NCBI GenBank assembly: GCA_938091655.1
Contig: CALKOA010000057.1
Coordinates: 1-44,941, forward strand
Length of the DNA: 44,941 nt
Direction of reading: 5' to 3'
DNA from: an uncultured Balneolaceae bacterium
GTDB taxonomy: Bacteria > Bacteroidota > Rhodothermia > Balneolales > Balneolaceae
In this document: positions 27,347 to 36,325 of the stretch, piece by piece
Layout: every line of letters starts with the position of its first letter
Position numbering within the stretch: position 1 is the stretch's first letter
The notes under the pieces: model-generated
What the model was told of the DNA's origin: nothing
The model's input: the letters and a program-made list of their open reading frames with translations, nothing else
The model's database searches: none
Translations under genes and position numbers: made by a program

Positions 27347-28156
27347 CTAGGGATTGATAATATTAAAACTAGATTTCAATGTATCACTAAAAAGTCCCGC
27401 TTTATCCCTTGCGAAATATAAAACTGTTCTGTTCTGAGGACTGTTAGAACTATTTACAGAGAATGTAATGGTGAATACCGAATCCCCCGCTACTTCATCC
27501 AATCCAGTGCCGGTATCGGTTAGGATATTAGGATTGGGTATTAGGATGCTTCCATCTTCGTTTTCAAATGCAATGAATACACGATCTAGGGTTTCTTGAC
27601 CATCCGGATCCGTTACTTTAGCTTGGAATGGAATATTTAAAGTGGTAGAACCAGTCGGGATTTCAACGGAGCTTGGGTTATTGACCCAAATTATTTGGGG
27701 TGGTGAACTCGCAATACCTTCTATGGTTAGGGTAGCTTGATGCTGTATACCATAGCCATAACGGTCCAAGGCGTATAACTCTACTAATAATTGCTCAAAG
27801 TTAGTCGTACTTGTTTCCCAGTTGAATGTCCCCTGTATTTCTATAGGTAAAGGGTTTGAAACAGGTATTTTTAATGGTTCTTGTAGAAGAATCACACCCG
27901 TTCTTGGTTCGCGTACAATATAACCTAAATACTCTAAAAGTTCGGAATTATGGAGTTGAGCATACAAGGTGTATTGGATGGTAGTATCCTTGAACCCATC
28001 TGTTTCTACATTAAAATTAACTTCCGTTGGTTCGACTCGAAAATGGCCTAGATCTACATATGCATAGGATTGAGTAGGACTATCTGGTAGGCTATCACAA
28101 TGGATACTACCTAAAATAGCAAGAACAAGTATAGATAAAATCGCTTTACTAAACAT
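27347..28156 (-). CDS. putative exported Ig-like protein, possibly a lipoprotein
   Basis: A 269-residue protein with a hydrophobic N-terminus (FSKAILSILVLAILGSIHC). Cys20 could be lipidated, but SIHC is a poor lipobox. The rest is beta-rich. The second half (PPQIIWVNNPSSVEIP, then KVTDPDG and DEVAGDSVFTITF) resembles Ig-like or cadherin-like modules that often sit on cell-surface proteins. I do not recognise a named family. It is the first gene of the eight-gene operon, with the next start 1 nt after its stop, so it probably works with the adjacent beta-propeller and barrel proteins. Confidence 0.6.
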   Translation of the reverse strand: MFSKAILSILVLAILGSIHCDSLPDSPTQSYAYVDLGHFRVEPTEVNFNVETDGFKDTTIQYTLYAQLHNSELLEYLGYIVREPRTGVILLQEPLKIPVSNPLPIEIQGTFNWETSTTNFEQLLVELYALDRYGYGIQHQATLTIEGIASSPPQIIWVNNPSSVEIPTGSTTLNIPFQAKVTDPDGQETLDRVFIAFENEDGSILIPNPNILTDTGTGLDEVAGDSVFTITFSVNSSNSPQNRTVLYFARDKAGLFSDTLKSSFNIINP

Positions 28157-28270
28157 CCAGCATGCTACATCTAAAATTTGGAGATGGCTTTGAACGCCGT
28201 TTCTTTATAGATGTAAAATATAAGGCAAGTTTTTCTATTTATTTGCTCAAAGGGTCATCTAATTTTTGCT

Positions 28271-28304: not shown

Positions 28305-28335
28305 TTGCAATTAGACAACATCTAGAGTATATTTG
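28305..28335 (+). promoter_or_regulatory. Bacteroidota-type promoter of the trp operon
   Basis: TTG at 28305-28307, a 20-nt spacer, and TATATTTG at 28328-28335 match the -33/-7 (TTTG, TAnnTTTG) promoter format, with ATTG in place of TTTG. It is the best-spaced such promoter in the window. Transcription would begin near 28342, leaving a leader of about 170 nt that contains the hairpin before trpE. Confidence 0.5.
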
Positions 28336-28414
28336 TTTTGATAGTTGCGTATGGGTGTTTAATTCAAACCTCCAAAGGTTGCCAACATGATATGTAAAAC
28401 TGTCACTAGTGTTT

Positions 28415-28447
28415 ACCCACTTTTTGTACAAAAAGTGGGTTTTTTTT
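28415..28447 (+). terminator. terminator hairpin in the trp leader, candidate attenuator
   Basis: ACCCACTTTTTGT (28415-28427) and ACAAAAAGTGGGT (28428-28440) are a perfect 13-bp inverted repeat; the central bases must open as the loop. An uninterrupted T run (28440-28447) follows, on the plus strand only. The gene to its left is divergent, so the hairpin can only act on transcripts entering the trp operon. TGGGTG at 28352-28357 could pair with TACCCA at 28414-28419 (one G-U) and compete with the stem, but this is speculative. Confidence 0.75.
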
Positions 28448-28510
28448 ATGTATTAAACGGAATGTTTTGGAATCACCTAATTCTCAAACACTTTTACATA
28501 CCTTAGTTAA

Positions 28511-29989
28511 ATGAATGTTGAATCATTTAAGCACTTAGCCAAAACATATACGGCTATACCAATATATCGACAGTTGTTGGCCGATACATTAACTCCTGTA
28601 TCTCTTTTTTTAAATATTCGAGAAGGTAGTACTCATCCATTTCTTTTTGAATCCGTTGAAGGGGGTGATCAATTGGCTAGATACTCTTTTTTAGGGTGTA
28701 ATCCCTACGAGCTTCTACGGTTTGATGGAAAAAAAACTGAATTACAGCGTAAAGATGGAACGGTAACTGAATTCGATTCATACTTTGACGCCCTGAAAAC
28801 CTGTACTACCAAATACACAGAACCTCATTTACCTGGATTACCGAGGTTAACTGGTGGGGCTGTTGGCTTCTCCTCTTACGATACCTTTAGACAAGTTGAG
28901 TATTTGCCGAACACCCCTCATGATGACCTAGGACTTCCCGAAGCTGTATGGGGATTTTATGATGAAATTTACGCGTTTGATCACGTTAAACATCAAGTTA
29001 TACTTATTCACACTGTCCGTATAGAGGAGGCTACAACTAATGATAGCCTACTTGATGAATGGTATGAGCAGGCTCAATATGCTTTGGACCAAATGGAGGC
29101 TAAGGTGAATAGAGGGGTGAATAAAGCACCCGATTTTTTTATTGATCCCGATCAACTTACTAGTAATATGGAAGAGTCATATTTCTCTAGTATGGTTGAA
29201 AAAGCGAAGCAGCATATATACGAAGGGGACATTTTTCAAGTAGTATTATCACAGCGATTTGAAACGGAAATGTCCGGAGATACTTTCATGCTTTACCGTG
29301 CCTTACGTATGGTTAATCCGTCACCATATTTGTTCTATCTGGATTTTGACTCATTTACTTTAGTAGGCAGTTCACCCGAGGTATTAGTTAGTGTACAAAA
29401 CCAGAGAGTACGAGTATTACCGATTGCGGGAACAAGGAAAAGGGGGGCAACCTTAAAAGAAGATTTAGAGTTAGAAGCTGACTTAAAACAGGACCCAAAA
29501 GAAATTGCCGAACATATTATGTTGGTTGACTTGGGACGAAATGATGTGTCTAGAGTAAGTAAGCCAGGCTCGGTTCAGCTGGATAGAAATCAGGTAATTG
29601 AACGTTATTCTCACGTTATGCATATTGTGAGTGATGTTTCTGGGCAATTAGATGAGGAGAAAACAGCGGTTGATGCTCTCATGCAATGCTTTCCGGCCGG
29701 CACTGTCAGTGGTGCACCTAAAATTAGAGCCATGCAAATAATCGATGAAATGGAACCCACAAAACGAGGAATCTATGCAGGTGCTGTCGGCTATTTTGAC
29801 TATTCTGGAAATATGGATACCTGTATTGCAATTAGAACAATGGTAGTAACAGGTAATAAGGTGTATATTCAAGCCGGGGCAGGAATTGTTGCGGACAGTA
29901 TAGCAGAAAATGAATTTGAAGAGACCGTGAATAAAGCTGGCGCACTGGTCAAGGCGCTAAGTACAGCCTTAGATATTCGAGACAACTAA
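28511..29989 (+). CDS. trpE: anthranilate synthase component I
   Basis: A 492-residue chorismate-binding enzyme that, with TrpG, makes anthranilate from chorismate and glutamine. The N-terminal feedback-inhibition region is FLFESVEGGDQLARYSFLG, analogous to the LLES tryptophan site. The catalytic half contains YEGDIFQVVLSQRFE, GSSPEVL, IAGTRKRG, HVMHIVSDVSG and FPAGTVSGAPKIRAMQIID. Sensitivity to tryptophan is therefore likely. The start ATG 28511 lies 63 nt after the leader hairpin. trpS follows after 6 nt, so its natural partner trpG is one gene away. Confidence 0.95.
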   Translation: MNVESFKHLAKTYTAIPIYRQLLADTLTPVSLFLNIREGSTHPFLFESVEGGDQLARYSFLGCNPYELLRFDGKKTELQRKDGTVTEFDSYFDALKTCTTKYTEPHLPGLPRLTGGAVGFSSYDTFRQVEYLPNTPHDDLGLPEAVWGFYDEIYAFDHVKHQVILIHTVRIEEATTNDSLLDEWYEQAQYALDQMEAKVNRGVNKAPDFFIDPDQLTSNMEESYFSSMVEKAKQHIYEGDIFQVVLSQRFETEMSGDTFMLYRALRMVNPSPYLFYLDFDSFTLVGSSPEVLVSVQNQRVRVLPIAGTRKRGATLKEDLELEADLKQDPKEIAEHIMLVDLGRNDVSRVSKPGSVQLDRNQVIERYSHVMHIVSDVSGQLDEEKTAVDALMQCFPAGTVSGAPKIRAMQIIDEMEPTKRGIYAGAVGYFDYSGNMDTCIAIRTMVVTGNKVYIQAGAGIVADSIAENEFEETVNKAGALVKALSTALDIRDN

Positions 29990-29995
29990 TTTACT

Positions 29996-30991
29996 ATGCA
30001 AAACGAATCAACCCTTCCAATAATATTATCCGGTATTCAACCCTCCGGAAAACTACATATTGGTAATTATTTCGGTGCAATTAGGCAACATATTGATATG
30101 CAAGAAAAGGGTAGAGCCTTTTATTTTATTGCAAATTTTCATTCACTCACCTCTCTAAAGAATGGAAAGGCATTACGGGAGTATACTTATGAAGTAGCAT
30201 TAGATTATCTTGCACTTGGCCTAAATCCTGAAGAAGCTACTTTTTTTGCTCAATCCGATGTGCCTCAAGTAACTGAATTGGCCTGGATTTTATCTACTCT
30301 AACCCCGGTTAGCCTAATGGAAAAAGGGGTTTCATATAAAGATAAAATCGCCGCTGGTTTAATTCCTAACATAGGTTTGTTCACTTATCCGATACTACAA
30401 GCAGCAGATATATTAATCTATCATTCAAATATTGTACCAGTAGGTGAGGATCAAAAACAAAATATTGAGATATGCCGAGATTTGGCGGGTAAATTCAATC
30501 GAACCTATGAGGGTGATTTTTTAATAGAGCCAGAAGAGTATATCGTCAAATCGGTTGCAACTGTTCCTGGAACCGATGGGCAGAAAATGAGTAAGAGTTA
30601 TGATAATACCTTACCCATTTTTGAAGAGCCTAAAGCATTGAAAAAGAAAATTATGAGCATACAAACGGACTCAACCCCCTTAGAAGAACCCAAGGATCCA
30701 ACAACAGATAATGTATATGCCTTAATTTCTCTTTTTGCCACTCAAGAAAAAAAAGAAGAAATAGCTCAAAAATATCGAGACGGTGGATATGGGTATGGTC
30801 ATGCTAAGAAAGAATTATTAGGTCTCATGACGGATTATTTTGCGGAAGCTACCGAACGCAGAAATGAACTCCAGCAGCATCCTGACAGGGTGTTTGATGT
30901 ACTTCATGAGGGAGCTAAACGAGCTCAAATTCAAGCCGAAAAAGTTATGCAGCCTATACGTGAAGTGGTTGGAATACATAAAAGTTTTTAA
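29996..30991 (+). CDS. trpS: tryptophanyl-tRNA synthetase
   Basis: A 331-residue class I aminoacyl-tRNA synthetase. The HIGH-type motif is HIGN at 21-24 within GIQPSGKLHIGNYFGA, and KMSKS is at 197-201 after VPGTDGQ. The length is typical for bacterial TrpRS. It charges tRNA-Trp, the main cellular outlet of the pathway encoded around it. It is embedded between trpE (6-nt gap) and trpG (8-nt gap) on the same strand, so charging capacity and synthesis should be co-regulated. No frameshift or codon break suggests a recent insertion. Confidence 0.96.
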   Translation: MQNESTLPIILSGIQPSGKLHIGNYFGAIRQHIDMQEKGRAFYFIANFHSLTSLKNGKALREYTYEVALDYLALGLNPEEATFFAQSDVPQVTELAWILSTLTPVSLMEKGVSYKDKIAAGLIPNIGLFTYPILQAADILIYHSNIVPVGEDQKQNIEICRDLAGKFNRTYEGDFLIEPEEYIVKSVATVPGTDGQKMSKSYDNTLPIFEEPKALKKKIMSIQTDSTPLEEPKDPTTDNVYALISLFATQEKKEEIAQKYRDGGYGYGHAKKELLGLMTDYFAEATERRNELQQHPDRVFDVLHEGAKRAQIQAEKVMQPIREVVGIHKSF

Positions 30992-30999
30992 GGTACGGT

Positions 31000-31572
31000 A
31001 TGATATTAATTATAGATAATTACGACTCTTTTACTTACAACTTGGTTCATCTAGTCGCAGAACAAACTGAGGATTACAGAGTAATCAGGAATGATGAATA
31101 TAGTATAGATCAAATAAAAGCCTTAAAGCCTACCAAAATATTAATATCGCCAGGTCCAGGAAAACCTCAAGATGCTGGTGTGACAAAGCAAGTAATTGCC
31201 GAGTTAGGCCCAAAAATACCCATACTGGGTGTTTGTTTGGGTCACCAAGCTATTGGGGAGGTATTTGGAGCAAAGGTAGTACATGCACCTAGTCTAATGC
31301 ACGGCAAAACCTCAATGGTTACTCATGGGGGCAGCACCTTATTTAACTCTATCCCAAAAGAATTTATCGCAACCCGGTATCATTCGTTAGTACTGAATCC
31401 TGAAAGCATACCGGACTCACTTGAAGTGACCGCGATGACCGATGATCATACCGGAACCATCGTGATGGGTGTGCGTCATAAAACCTATCCGATTGAAGGA
31501 ATTCAGTTCCATCCTGAAAGTATATTAACTACTGAGGGACCTCAAATGATTAAGAATTGGTTAGGACAGTAA
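31000..31572 (+). CDS. trpG: anthranilate synthase component II (glutamine amidotransferase)
   Basis: A 190-residue class I glutamine amidotransferase that supplies ammonia to TrpE. The triad is visible: nucleophile Cys79 in GVCLGHQAIG, and His171 and Glu173 in FHPES. The oxyanion loop PGPGKPQDAG lies at 51-60. It is a stand-alone TrpG, not fused to trpD. Sequence alone cannot exclude dual use as PabA for folate synthesis. An 87-nt gap to trpD contains a GCTTAAT/ATTAAGC inverted repeat (31598-31604 and 31644-31650). Confidence 0.94.
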   Translation: MILIIDNYDSFTYNLVHLVAEQTEDYRVIRNDEYSIDQIKALKPTKILISPGPGKPQDAGVTKQVIAELGPKIPILGVCLGHQAIGEVFGAKVVHAPSLMHGKTSMVTHGGSTLFNSIPKEFIATRYHSLVLNPESIPDSLEVTAMTDDHTGTIVMGVRHKTYPIEGIQFHPESILTTEGPQMIKNWLGQ

Positions 31573-31659
31573 AAGATCGACGTAATTCATCCCAATAGCT
31601 TAATCAATCAAGCCTAACAAACTTTATAAGAGCTCCAAGACTAATTAAGCCAGATAATC

Positions 31660-32688
31660 ATGAGTTTTAGTTTTAAAGAAATACTTCAAAAAATTACCTT
31701 GGGGCATGACCTTAGTTCCAGCCAAGCTGTCTATGCCTTAGAGTGTGTTATGAATGGGGAAGTTAGCTCCGAAGAGATAGCATCCTTTTTGACTGCAATG
31801 AAGATGAAAGGAGAGACTATTGAAGAGTTATCATCTTTTGTACAAGTAATGAGGTCAAAATCGATTAAAGTTGAAACGGATATAACAGGTGCGGTAGATA
31901 TCGTTGGTACTGGAGGAGATAAATCTGGCACTTTTAATATATCGACCATCACGGCATTTGTTACAGCAGCAGCAGGTGTACCCGTCATAAAACATGGAAA
32001 CAGAAGTGCGTCAAGCAAATGTGGCAGTGCCGATGTATTAGAAATCCTTGGCGCTAATATAGAGTTACATCCAGGCCAGGTTGCGCAGGTATTTGAGCGT
32101 GTAGGTATTGCCTTTATGTATGCTCCAATGTTTCATCCTGCTATGAAATATGTAATGCCAGCGCGAAAGGCCATCGGATTTCGAACATTTTTCAATATTC
32201 TCGGGCCTTTGACAAACCCTGCAGGTGTTCGAAATTATGTCATAGGAGCGTACAATAAAGATGTTGCGCATCAAATGGCTCAAATATTGGCAACTCTAGA
32301 TACCCAATTTGCCTATACCTTTAGTTCCGAGGATGGCCTCGATGAAATAAGTTTGTGCAATCCAACCACTTTTTTTGAAGTAAAAGAGCAATTAAGTTCA
32401 CAGCAAAGAACTTTTAAACCCGAAGAATTAGGCTTTAAACGTGTGGAAATGACCGAACTTTTAGGTGGGGAACCATCGTTGAATGCTCGTATTTTTACCG
32501 ATATTTTAGCCAATAAGGCAACAGCGGCTCAAACAAACATGGTAGTACTAAATGCAGCATTTGCCATACATGCTGTTACCGATGTGCAAAATCTTCAGGA
32601 AGCTAAAATATTAGCCGAGGAAGCAATTCAATCGGGTGCAGCATTAACTAAACTTAATGAGTTCATTACTGCGACTCAATCTTGTTAA
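31660..32688 (+). CDS. trpD: anthranilate phosphoribosyltransferase
   Basis: A 342-residue enzyme joining anthranilate to PRPP. The PRPP/pyrophosphate loop VGTGGDKSGTFNIST and the anthranilate-site KHGNRSASSKCGSADVLE are both intact, followed by HPAMKYVMPARKAIGFRTFFNILGPLTNPA. The length is typical. The stop is followed by one base and then the trpC ATG. Confidence 0.95.
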   Translation: MSFSFKEILQKITLGHDLSSSQAVYALECVMNGEVSSEEIASFLTAMKMKGETIEELSSFVQVMRSKSIKVETDITGAVDIVGTGGDKSGTFNISTITAFVTAAAGVPVIKHGNRSASSKCGSADVLEILGANIELHPGQVAQVFERVGIAFMYAPMFHPAMKYVMPARKAIGFRTFFNILGPLTNPAGVRNYVIGAYNKDVAHQMAQILATLDTQFAYTFSSEDGLDEISLCNPTTFFEVKEQLSSQQRTFKPEELGFKRVEMTELLGGEPSLNARIFTDILANKATAAQTNMVVLNAAFAIHAVTDVQNLQEAKILAEEAIQSGAALTKLNEFITATQSC

Positions 32689-32689
32689 T

Positions 32690-33502
32690 ATGAGTATACT
32701 TGATAAGATAGTCACCCAAACCAAAATTGATCTCAAAAAGCGAATTGCACAACGAAGTGTACAGAGTTTAGAATCGGAATGGGGATATGAAAAAGAATTT
32801 AAATCTTTCTCTCAAGTAATTAGGGGAAATGAGGTTAAGTTTATAACGGAAGTAAAAAAAGCTTCACCTTCTAAGGGTATAATTAGAGAAGATTTTGAGC
32901 CTGTAACTCTCGCTAAAATCTATGAAGACTCTGGGGCTTCCGCCATTTCAGTTCTAACCGATGAGCCTTTTTTTAAGGGACATTTGTCGTATATGAACGA
33001 TATCGCAAAACAATCAAGCATTCCTATTTTGCGAAAAGACTTTATCATAGATCCCTATCAAATCGTTGAAGCTAAGGCCTATGGCGCAGATGCCATTTTG
33101 TTGATCGTTCGTATACTTTCTAATGCTCAACTAGATGAGCTGTTATCTGTAGCAAAAGAGCTAGACTTAGATGCTTTAGTCGAATGTTACGATATAATTG
33201 ATCAAGAACGCATCGACTATGATAAAGTATCCATTCTTGGGGTTAATAACCGTGATTTAGAAGCTTTTAATGTAAACGTACACCGTGGGGTATCACAATT
33301 AAAAATGGCCCCTGAATCTACCATAACAGTATCTGAAAGTGGTATTTCTACGGTTGAGGATATACAGTATCTACAGCAAAACGGAATACATGCGGTATTA
33401 ATAGGCGAACACTTAATGCGACAGTCCAATGTTGGTGAAGAACTGAAAAAACTAGTCTTAGCAGCACAAGAAGCTGCTGACAAGCCTAATACTTCACACT
33501 AG
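32690..33502 (+). CDS. trpC: indole-3-glycerol phosphate synthase
   Basis: A 270-residue TIM-barrel enzyme that converts CdRP to indole-3-glycerol phosphate. FITEVKKASPSKG carries the catalytic lysine region, IPILRKDFIIDPYQIVEAKAYGADAILLI and LGVNNRDLEAFNV supply active-site strands, and SESGIST with VLIGEHLMR close the barrel. The start is ATG 32690; an in-frame alternative at 32657 lies within trpD and is unlikely. It is separate from trpF, unlike the fused E. coli enzyme. The 85-nt gap to trpF holds a GATCAA/TTGATC repeat but no clear promoter. Confidence 0.95.
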   Translation: MSILDKIVTQTKIDLKKRIAQRSVQSLESEWGYEKEFKSFSQVIRGNEVKFITEVKKASPSKGIIREDFEPVTLAKIYEDSGASAISVLTDEPFFKGHLSYMNDIAKQSSIPILRKDFIIDPYQIVEAKAYGADAILLIVRILSNAQLDELLSVAKELDLDALVECYDIIDQERIDYDKVSILGVNNRDLEAFNVNVHRGVSQLKMAPESTITVSESGISTVEDIQYLQQNGIHAVLIGEHLMRQSNVGEELKKLVLAAQEAADKPNTSH

Positions 33503-33587
33503 AGTAATAGATCAATTTATACGCTCAAATTATATACACTTGATCCAGCATATCCGATAACATATACACAACAAATATGGTTATTAC

Positions 33588-34238
33588 ATGAAAAAAAGTA
33601 AGGTGAAAATATGTGGTCTTACTAATTTAGCAGATGCTCGATTCGCTGCCGGAGCGGGAGCTGACTATTTAGGTTTTATTTTTGTCGAGGGAACCCCGCG
33701 ATACATTGAACCGGCTATGGTAGGTGCAATAAGTGAATGGGTTGAAGGTCCATACAAAGTAGGAGTATTTCAAAATCAAGATCTTAGTTTTGTGACTGAA
33801 ACAGCTAGACTGGTGGGGTTGGACATGATTCAACTACATGGCCAAGAATCCACCGAATATTGCTCAAAACTGTCAGAAAATCATCGCGTAATCAAGGTCT
33901 TTTCTGTGGATGAACAGACTAAATCAACGGACCTTTCACGAGAACTCCAAGGCTATAAAAACGTGTGTGAATACATCATGTTTGACACTAAAGTGGGCAG
34001 TCAAAGTGGGGGCACTGGTGTGTCTTTTGATTGGAAACTCATCAATGAACTGGATATCCCATTACCTTATTTCCTATCAGGTGGTATTTCACATGAAACT
34101 GTTAATGAAGCCTTTAAACTACTTTCCGGGAACCCTCCAATGGCTATTGATGTATCTTCTAAGATAGAAGAAAGTATCGGTATAAAAGATTTCGATAAGT
34201 TATCTTTACTTATGGAAGCCGTGAATACAACGACCTAA
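33588..34238 (+). CDS. trpF: phosphoribosylanthranilate isomerase
   Basis: A 216-residue TIM barrel catalysing the Amadori rearrangement of PRA to CdRP. It begins with KVKICGLTNLADARFAAGAGADYLGFIF (catalytic Cys in KICGLT), followed by MIQLHGQES, the catalytic-aspartate strand YIMFDTKVG, and PYFLSGGISHETV. Its final codons form the left arm of a terminator-like hairpin (34214-34258). Confidence 0.93.
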   Translation: MKKSKVKICGLTNLADARFAAGAGADYLGFIFVEGTPRYIEPAMVGAISEWVEGPYKVGVFQNQDLSFVTETARLVGLDMIQLHGQESTEYCSKLSENHRVIKVFSVDEQTKSTDLSRELQGYKNVCEYIMFDTKVGSQSGGTGVSFDWKLINELDIPLPYFLSGGISHETVNEAFKLLSGNPPMAIDVSSKIEESIGIKDFDKLSLLMEAVNTTT

Positions 34239-34258
34239 GAGGCGGCTTCCCTTTTTTT
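34214..34258 (+). terminator. terminator-like hairpin between trpF and trpB
   Basis: GGAAGCCG (34214-34221, within the trpF end) pairs perfectly with CGGCTTCC (34243-34250), a GC-rich 8-bp stem with a 21-nt loop, followed by C and seven T residues (34252-34258). It lies inside the trp operon, 46 nt before the trpB ATG. It could lower trpBA expression, mark the end of one transcript, or be regulated. The long loop makes it weaker than the other two hairpins. Confidence 0.5.
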
Positions 34259-34304
34259 GTTTTGTCGTCTTCAACTAAATTGGACTAAATCTCAACTCAC
34301 TATC

Positions 34305-35504
34305 ATGTCAGTCATTACTAAAACCAGTTATTCTGAACCCAATCAAAAAGGATATTTTGGTGCTTATGGGGGTAAATTTGTGCCCGAAACCCTGATTCCT
34401 GCACTCAACGAGCTTGAAAATGCATACAAAAAAGCCAGTGAAGATCCTGAATTTGAAAAAGAGTATCTCTACTTACTAAGAGAATATGTAGGGCGTCCTA
34501 CCGAACTCAGTTTTGCCAACCGCTTAACAGATCATTATGGTAAAGCAAAAATCTATTTAAAGAGAGAAGACCTTTGTCACACGGGAGCGCATAAAATAAA
34601 TAATGCGATTGGACAGATACTTTTAGCCCTTAGAATGGGGAAAAAACGAATTATTGCTGAAACGGGTGCCGGCCAACATGGGGTGGCTACGGCAACAGCA
34701 TGTGCTAAATTCGGTGTTGAATGTATAGTATACATGGGGGAGGAAGACATGGTACGTCAGAAACTCAACGTCGACAGAATGCGATTGATGGGAGCCGAGG
34801 TACGCGGAGTCAGTAGTGGTTCCAAAACGTTAAAAGACGCAACAAATGAAGCTATTCGAGATTGGGTAACCAATGTTGAAGACACTTTTTATATCATAGG
34901 CTCGGTGGTGGGACCACATCCATATCCGATGATGGTAAGAAATTTCCATCGAATTATCGGTGACGAAACCAAGCGGCAGTTAATGGAAATGGAGGGTCGT
35001 CTACCTGATTACCTTATTGCCTGTGTGGGCGGTGGTTCCAACGCTATGGGTATTTTTTATCCATTCATTAATGATGATGTACATATCATTGGCATTGAAG
35101 CGGGTGGATTAGGTGTACATTCCGGACAAACAGCAGCTACGTTAACAAAAGGTCGTCCCGGTGTGCTACATGGATCTATGAGTTACTTGCTTCATGATCA
35201 GGAAGGGCAAATCGAATTAGCTCATTCCATTAGTGCTGGTTTGGATTATCCTGGTATTGGTCCTGAACATGCCTATCTACATGATACAAAGCGAGTAGAA
35301 TATCGTGCTGTTACTGATGCCCAAGCACTTGAAGCAGTATCCTTATTATCGAGGATGGAAGGAATAATACCTGCTTTAGAGACTGCTCATGCTTTTGCTT
35401 GGTTGGAAGAACTTATGCCAACCACTTCTTCAGACGAAATAGTTGTGTTGAACTGCTCTGGAAGAGGCGATAAAGACATGGAAACTATTTCTAAGTATCT
35501 TTAA
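34305..35504 (+). CDS. trpB: tryptophan synthase beta chain
   Basis: A 399-residue PLP enzyme condensing indole and serine. PLP Lys97 lies in [10 protein letters not shown], the catalytic glutamate region is in AETGAGQHG, and the phosphate loop [10 protein letters not shown] is intact. The N-terminus [13 protein letters not shown] is characteristic of the classic TrpB1 form. I chose ATG 34305; an upstream TTG at 34257 would begin inside the T run of the hairpin and add 16 non-conserved residues. trpA follows after 17 nt. Confidence 0.96.
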
Positions 35505-35521
35505 ATAGCCAATTAGACCCA

Positions 35522-36325
35522 ATGAATCGAATTAATAAGGTTTTCGAAGACAAAAAGAATGAGAAGATAATGAGTCTTTTCATCACGGCAGGGTACCCTG
35601 ATGTAACTGAAACCGTAGACTTAGTTTTAGGTTTTGAACGTAACGGTGCCGATATCATTGAATTAGGTATTCCCTTTAGTGACCCATTAGCAGACGGACC
35701 GACCATTCAATACTCATCGAATATAGCTATATCCAAAGGAATAACTATCCAAGGCATTTTTAATATGGTTGTAGATATTAGAAAGGAGTCGGATATACCT
35801 ATTGTTTTAATGGGCTACATAAATCCTATGCTTAGGTTTGGCTTGGAGAACTTTTTTACCACTGCAGCTGAGGCAGGTGTAGATGGGTTAATTGTACCAG
35901 ATTTACCACTCGATGAAGGGGCTATGATTGAAGATTTAGCCCGTGTAAATGGGATTCAACTTATTTATTTGATAGCGCCCAACACTAGTGATGAAAGAAT
36001 GCAGCTAAGTGATCAGAAGTCTGATGGCTTTGTATACTGCGTCTCTGTGACTGGGGTAACTGGTGCTAGGGAAGGGAGTGAAGTTCAACAATCAGTAGAT
36101 AAATTTATTCAACGATCGAAAGAAAATATCACAAAAAATCCCTTAATGGTGGGTTTTGGTATAAAAAACTTCACAGATGCGCAAAATATTTCTAAGGAAG
36201 TGGAGGGATTTATTGTTGGTAGTGCTCTCATTGAAACGATTAGAAATTCCTATCCAAAAGATCATTGGAAGGAAGAGGTGTTCACCTTTGTGCATCAACT
36301 CAAATTTGGCTATCCTAACACCTAA
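35522..36325 (+). CDS. trpA: tryptophan synthase alpha chain
   Basis: A 267-residue TIM barrel cleaving indole-3-glycerol phosphate to indole, which is channelled to TrpB. Catalytic Glu47 and Asp58 lie in IIELGIPFSDPLADGP. The loop YCVSVTGVTGARE and phosphate-binding VGFGIKN are present. It is the last trp gene. The 81-nt gap after it contains an AATAATG/CATTATT hairpin (near 36325-36351) without a T run, so no convincing intrinsic terminator ends the operon. Confidence 0.95.
   Translation: MNRINKVFEDKKNEKIMSLFITAGYPDVTETVDLVLGFERNGADIIELGIPFSDPLADGPTIQYSSNIAISKGITIQGIFNMVVDIRKESDIPIVLMGYINPMLRFGLENFFTTAAEAGVDGLIVPDLPLDEGAMIEDLARVNGIQLIYLIAPNTSDERMQLSDQKSDGFVYCVSVTGVTGAREGSEVQQSVDKFIQRSKENITKNPLMVGFGIKNFTDAQNISKEVEGFIVGSALIETIRNSYPKDHWKEEVFTFVHQLKFGYPNT

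Follow-up and report, generated by a model that had tools for sequence, protein, structure and literature searches.

A trp leader in one Balneolaceae genus that keeps the hairpin and terminator of an attenuator and lacks its leader peptide

The closest described systems are the classical trp leader-peptide attenuators of Escherichia coli and of relatives within the Balneolales, which the locus reported here resembles in operon position, in its promoter-proximal leader and in having a 5' hairpin ahead of an intrinsic terminator. It differs from them in having neither a Trp-rich peptide nor an antiterminator, while its terminator core is the same as in the relatives. In syntenic attenuators, the same gene is attenuated by a sensing device that differs by lineage, with a T-box or a leader peptide taking over; before that survey's own case from Firmicutes, leader-peptide systems were known only from Proteobacteria and Actinobacteria (Naville and Gautheret 2010, PMC2965389). 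There, too, the same gene stays attenuated with different sensing, but in our genus no replacement sensor is recognisable. The TRAP-controlled trp leader of B. subtilis is similar in having a terminator without a leader peptide, but the TRAP gene (mtrB, PF02081) was found in none of the nine genomes of the genus, with a positive B. subtilis control, and no row of (G/U)AG triplets was seen on reading the leader. Among openly licensed papers, we found none on trp leaders of Balneolota.

The window, meaning the whole 44,941-nt stretch that was analysed, comes from a draft assembly of 2.05 Mb. Its Balneolaceae genus is sampled by nine species genomes, which form about four independent clades and several of which are incomplete. 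The window's trp operon has the order trpE-trpS-trpG-trpD-trpC-trpF-trpB-trpA, confirmed with NCBIfam, and lies on the plus strand, as do all leader features below: trpE encodes anthranilate synthase component I (28511–29989, TIGR00564), trpS tryptophanyl-tRNA synthetase (29996–30991, TIGR00233), and trpG, trpD, trpC, trpF, trpB and trpA occupy 31000–36325. Almost every Balneolales locus examined has trpS beside trpE, so this arrangement is not special to this genus. The gene 5' of the leader (27347–28156) is on the minus strand and divergent from trpE. Between it and the trp promoter, AAATATAAGGCAAGT (28216–28230) is kept in all nine congeners and is perhaps part of the divergent gene's promoter.

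A sigma70-like promoter (TTGCAA-17-TATATT, 28305–28333) is kept in 9/9 congeners and resembles that of the leader-peptide relatives. Folding each congener separately uncovered a helix, P1, that sequence alignment had masked; it pairs GAUAGUU (28340–28346) with AACUGUC (28398–28404). Its first base sits exactly 6 nt past the -10 box in all nine, from which we infer a transcript start near 28340, with P1 at the 5' end of a leader of ~171 nt; this start, like termination and the tryptophan response discussed below, is deduced from sequence. Three of the seven P1 pairs changed on both sides and 95% of cells are paired, compared with 23–60% in slid controls, whereas individual pairs are broken in L028 and L029. 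Since the nine species form about four independent clades, this covariation rests on few events, and the pair-counter shuffles ignore kinship and therefore count as supporting evidence only.

The intrinsic terminator (28415–28447) was recovered by palindrome, folding and terminator scan. ACCCACTTTTTGT and ACAAAAAGTGGGT form a perfect 13+13 palindrome (28415–28440) with T8 at 28440–28447, 71 bases 5' of trpE; as RNA, the palindrome folds into 11 pairs with a 4-nt loop, and the scan found one site where 0.1 were expected in shuffles. A terminator between promoter and trpE is kept in 9/9 congeners with both arms nearly unchanged, and its core (ACCCAC..GTGGGT) is common to the window and the leader-peptide relatives. 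A repeat of the terminator 5' arm, CACTTTTA (28489–28496), stands ahead of trpE; in read-through mRNA it might pair with the 3' arm. The original prediction, made from this DNA alone, had described a divergent upstream gene, a leader of about 170 nt and a 13-bp perfect hairpin with a T run, all of which hold; it had also called the promoter Bacteroidota-type, and here a promoter does exist, but its conserved elements are those given above and not a TAnnTTTG box.

A uniform scan found a Trp-rich leader ORF in 71/71 other genomes of the family and at 11/11 further Balneolales loci, but 5' of the terminator in 0/9 genomes of the window's genus. For three of those 71 genomes, the scan halted at another upstream ORF, and their WWW or WW leaders were read separately. 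The family's peptides, of which MKNRFAHTSTWWWPSAKYSSGYFV is an example, are mostly WWWP, with WCW and WRW variants. Throughout the Balneolaceae, these peptides (L108–L128 and L160–L209, 5' of trpE) start within ~10 nt of the -10 box and so would be leaderless or nearly so. The relatives' leaders fold, without a stalled ribosome, into a long 5' hairpin followed by the terminator. An antiterminator can form instead when a segment such as CAGTGGGTAT pairs with the terminator 5' arm, ATACCCACTG. Between leader and terminator 5' arm, this duplex averages -15.4 kcal/mol in other genera (z -2.6 versus shuffles), a family norm rather than a genome-by-genome test, compared with -5.1 kcal/mol (z +0.5) in the genus, which is no better than shuffled sequence and amounts to no antiterminator.

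The TrpE tree groups the genus in a single clade, with support 100/100, that lies within the leader-peptide carriers. By this comparison, the loss of peptide and antiterminator is one derived event on the stem lineage of the genus. A His-rich leader peptide 5' of hisG is kept in 6/7 congeners in which hisG was found (MYQSPLHNSSLHTSVHVVHVHLRGFVHLHPC in the window's genome); the loss is therefore specific to trp, and leader-peptide attenuation was not dropped wholesale. Such His-rich peptides (L212–L231) precede hisG across the Balneolaceae and are often GTG-initiated, for example VNLDNLHTAHHPHHGIHHGHHRVH; those of the window's genus are kept but poorer in His.

The reading we favour, to which we give about even confidence, is that a former ribosome-mediated trp attenuator has been reduced to a hairpin and a terminator, with termination as the default and relief, if any, by a putative factor. 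In the ancestor, a ribosome on the promoter-proximal WWWP peptide would have stalled when charged tRNA-Trp was short, opening the 5' hairpin, whose 3' part would then have paired with the terminator 5' arm so that no terminator formed. What remains is a predicted 5'-terminal hairpin (28340–28404) followed by the terminator. With nothing left to open this hairpin, transcription would mostly stop near 28447, leaving the trp genes and trpS to be expressed by read-through. The original prediction had implied a sensing system separate from the textbook ones; the relatives show instead that it descends from an attenuator of the textbook kind, with a Trp leader peptide, and that the genus lost the sensing half.

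The leader might also be an unregulated relic, its sensor lost in genome reduction and its terminator left as a fixed partial brake with no tryptophan response. We consider this possible though not probable. Sensor and antiterminator are both gone, an unregulated terminator would also explain most of the data, and congener genomes are small (1.4–2.7 Mb, several incomplete, versus mostly 2.7–5.3 Mb in the family). No known regulator was found in the genus either. As originally predicted, the leader shows neither a Trp-rich peptide nor a T-box nor TRAP-type triplets: there is no T-box match in Rfam at the gathering score, nor any among leader matches to E 10, and no Rfam family comes near its cut-off, the best being a chance-level match to PyrR (25 bits versus 54). 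TrpR (PF01371) occurs in only 1/9 genomes. That lone TrpR-superfamily protein (L211/G003:C5:174022–174267) is encoded 155 nt 5' of a hisG. It may therefore be a YerC/HisR-like regulator of his genes rather than a trp repressor, or else sit on a contaminant contig.

Against a relic stand the compensatory changes that maintain P1 and the conservation of unpaired bases. Between clades of the genus, change at the 4-fold sites of trpE has reached saturation: 8/154 are invariant in all nine genomes, and identity at these sites is 27–41% among the three most distant clades and ~52% to L030 in the window's own clade. Nevertheless, the CUCYAARG loop (28370–28377), the 19-nt block CTGTYACTAGTGTTTACCC (28400–28418), both terminator arms and UGUUUUGG are almost unchanged. 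The block runs from the end of P1 through the unpaired linker ACTAGTGTTT into the beginning of the terminator stem, and occurs once per genome at 0–1 mismatch in 9/9 congeners; a plain terminator needs neither linker nor loop. The loop is carried by an apical hairpin (AACCU-CCAA-AGGUU, 28367–28380) that finds support in seven genomes, of which one has a mismatch; in clade L034/L035 this stem is not formed, and another fold surrounds the same loop.

Because these unpaired bases of apical loop and linker are conserved, a bound factor is suggested. On the favoured reading of a reduced attenuator, a putative trans-acting factor would adjust read-through; it would probably be an RNA-binding protein that serves this operon alone. 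Against this reading, neither such a factor nor a conserved alternative structure that would keep the terminator from forming was found. An operon-specific factor would suit the single locus per genome: a covariance model of the leader matched this locus alone, with no convincing other copy in the genus or the order. Its weak order-level matches include two trp leaders (G034 and G030), fitting terminator homology. More doubtful is a further step, in which the terminator was put to use by a newly evolved attenuator that responds to tryptophan in another way, with a putative RNA-binding protein or ligand reading P1, the CUCYAARG loop and the linker.

The ligand might be tryptophan or a related molecule bound by the P1-closed domain itself, a riboswitch stabilising termination. 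Such a domain directly 5' of a terminator is a common riboswitch layout, its closing stem covaries and no protein sensor is known; yet the sequence from P1 to the apical loop is hardly conserved across the clades of the genus, L034/L035 fold differently, and no conserved switch between P1 and an antiterminator was found in the genus. We regard a riboswitch as quite improbable. A competing pair proposed in the original prediction (28352–28357 with 28414–28419) is possible in this genome only (TGGGTG/TACCCA), the relatives having no GGGU at that place. Other candidates were rejected as well: an antiterminator formed by an AGUG/CACU mini-hairpin within the linker is broken in L033; the linker as a DNA palindrome, CACTAGTG, is absent in L028/L029 and L031–L033; a search for a downstream partner of the linker, covering the terminator through its 5' arm, gave no position common to the congeners; and a coding reading of the pre-terminator leader yields no common start codon or Trp codons.

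Least credible, and in our judgement very unlikely, is that the apical loop imitates the anticodon loop of tRNA-Trp and is bound for that reason by the operon-encoded TrpRS. trpS is the second operon gene, and in four genomes, the window's among them, the loop reads CUCCAAA, exactly as the tRNA-Trp loop of the genus does. The other 5/9, however, read CUCUAAR, with the middle anticodon base changed, and in members of those clades tRNA-Trp stays CUCCAAA.

Between terminator and trpE, a further hairpin (UGUUU-U-GGAAU..AUUCU-C-AAACA, 28463–28490) shows weak covariation, with its 5' arm UGUUUUGG, a potential pairing partner of the CUCYAARG loop, invariant in the genus and a different but similar hairpin at this site in clade L034/L035. 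RNAalifold pairs the CUCYAARG loop with UUUUGG across the terminator, which is possible in 9/9 genomes; with no two-sided changes, this pairing is only suggestive. Control past the terminator might be translational, with UGUUUUGG and the hairpin, or a short coupled ORF, sensing Trp-tRNA in read-through mRNA, which seems to us improbable. The hairpin is kept through changes from A-U to G-U to G-C. The ORF (ATG/TTG-TTT-TGG, from 28462) has Trp as its third codon (TGG at 28468) and ends close to the start codon of trpE, between 4 nt before and 11 nt after it; its start and TGG are kept in 9/9 genomes, and all clades inspected have its stop where trpE begins. But its changes between clades hit all three codon positions, so it does not evolve like coding sequence; it has a single Trp codon; and a ribosome stalled there should reduce rather than increase the coupled translation of trpE.

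What endures of the original prediction is a conserved attenuator-like leader without a peptide 5' of trpE, whose structure, P1 and terminator, is shared by close relatives; the competing pair and the implied separate system do not. Across the order, Trp leader peptides are now documented throughout the Balneolales. The genus offers a single-event natural experiment, in which the sensing half of an attenuator is gone while promoter, hairpin and terminator appear to be still under selection. A different tryptophan-responsive attenuator on the retained terminator, if true, would be a new kind of trp attenuation, and the locus thus raises the question of whether an attenuator may persist without its sensor or has been rewired to a new one.
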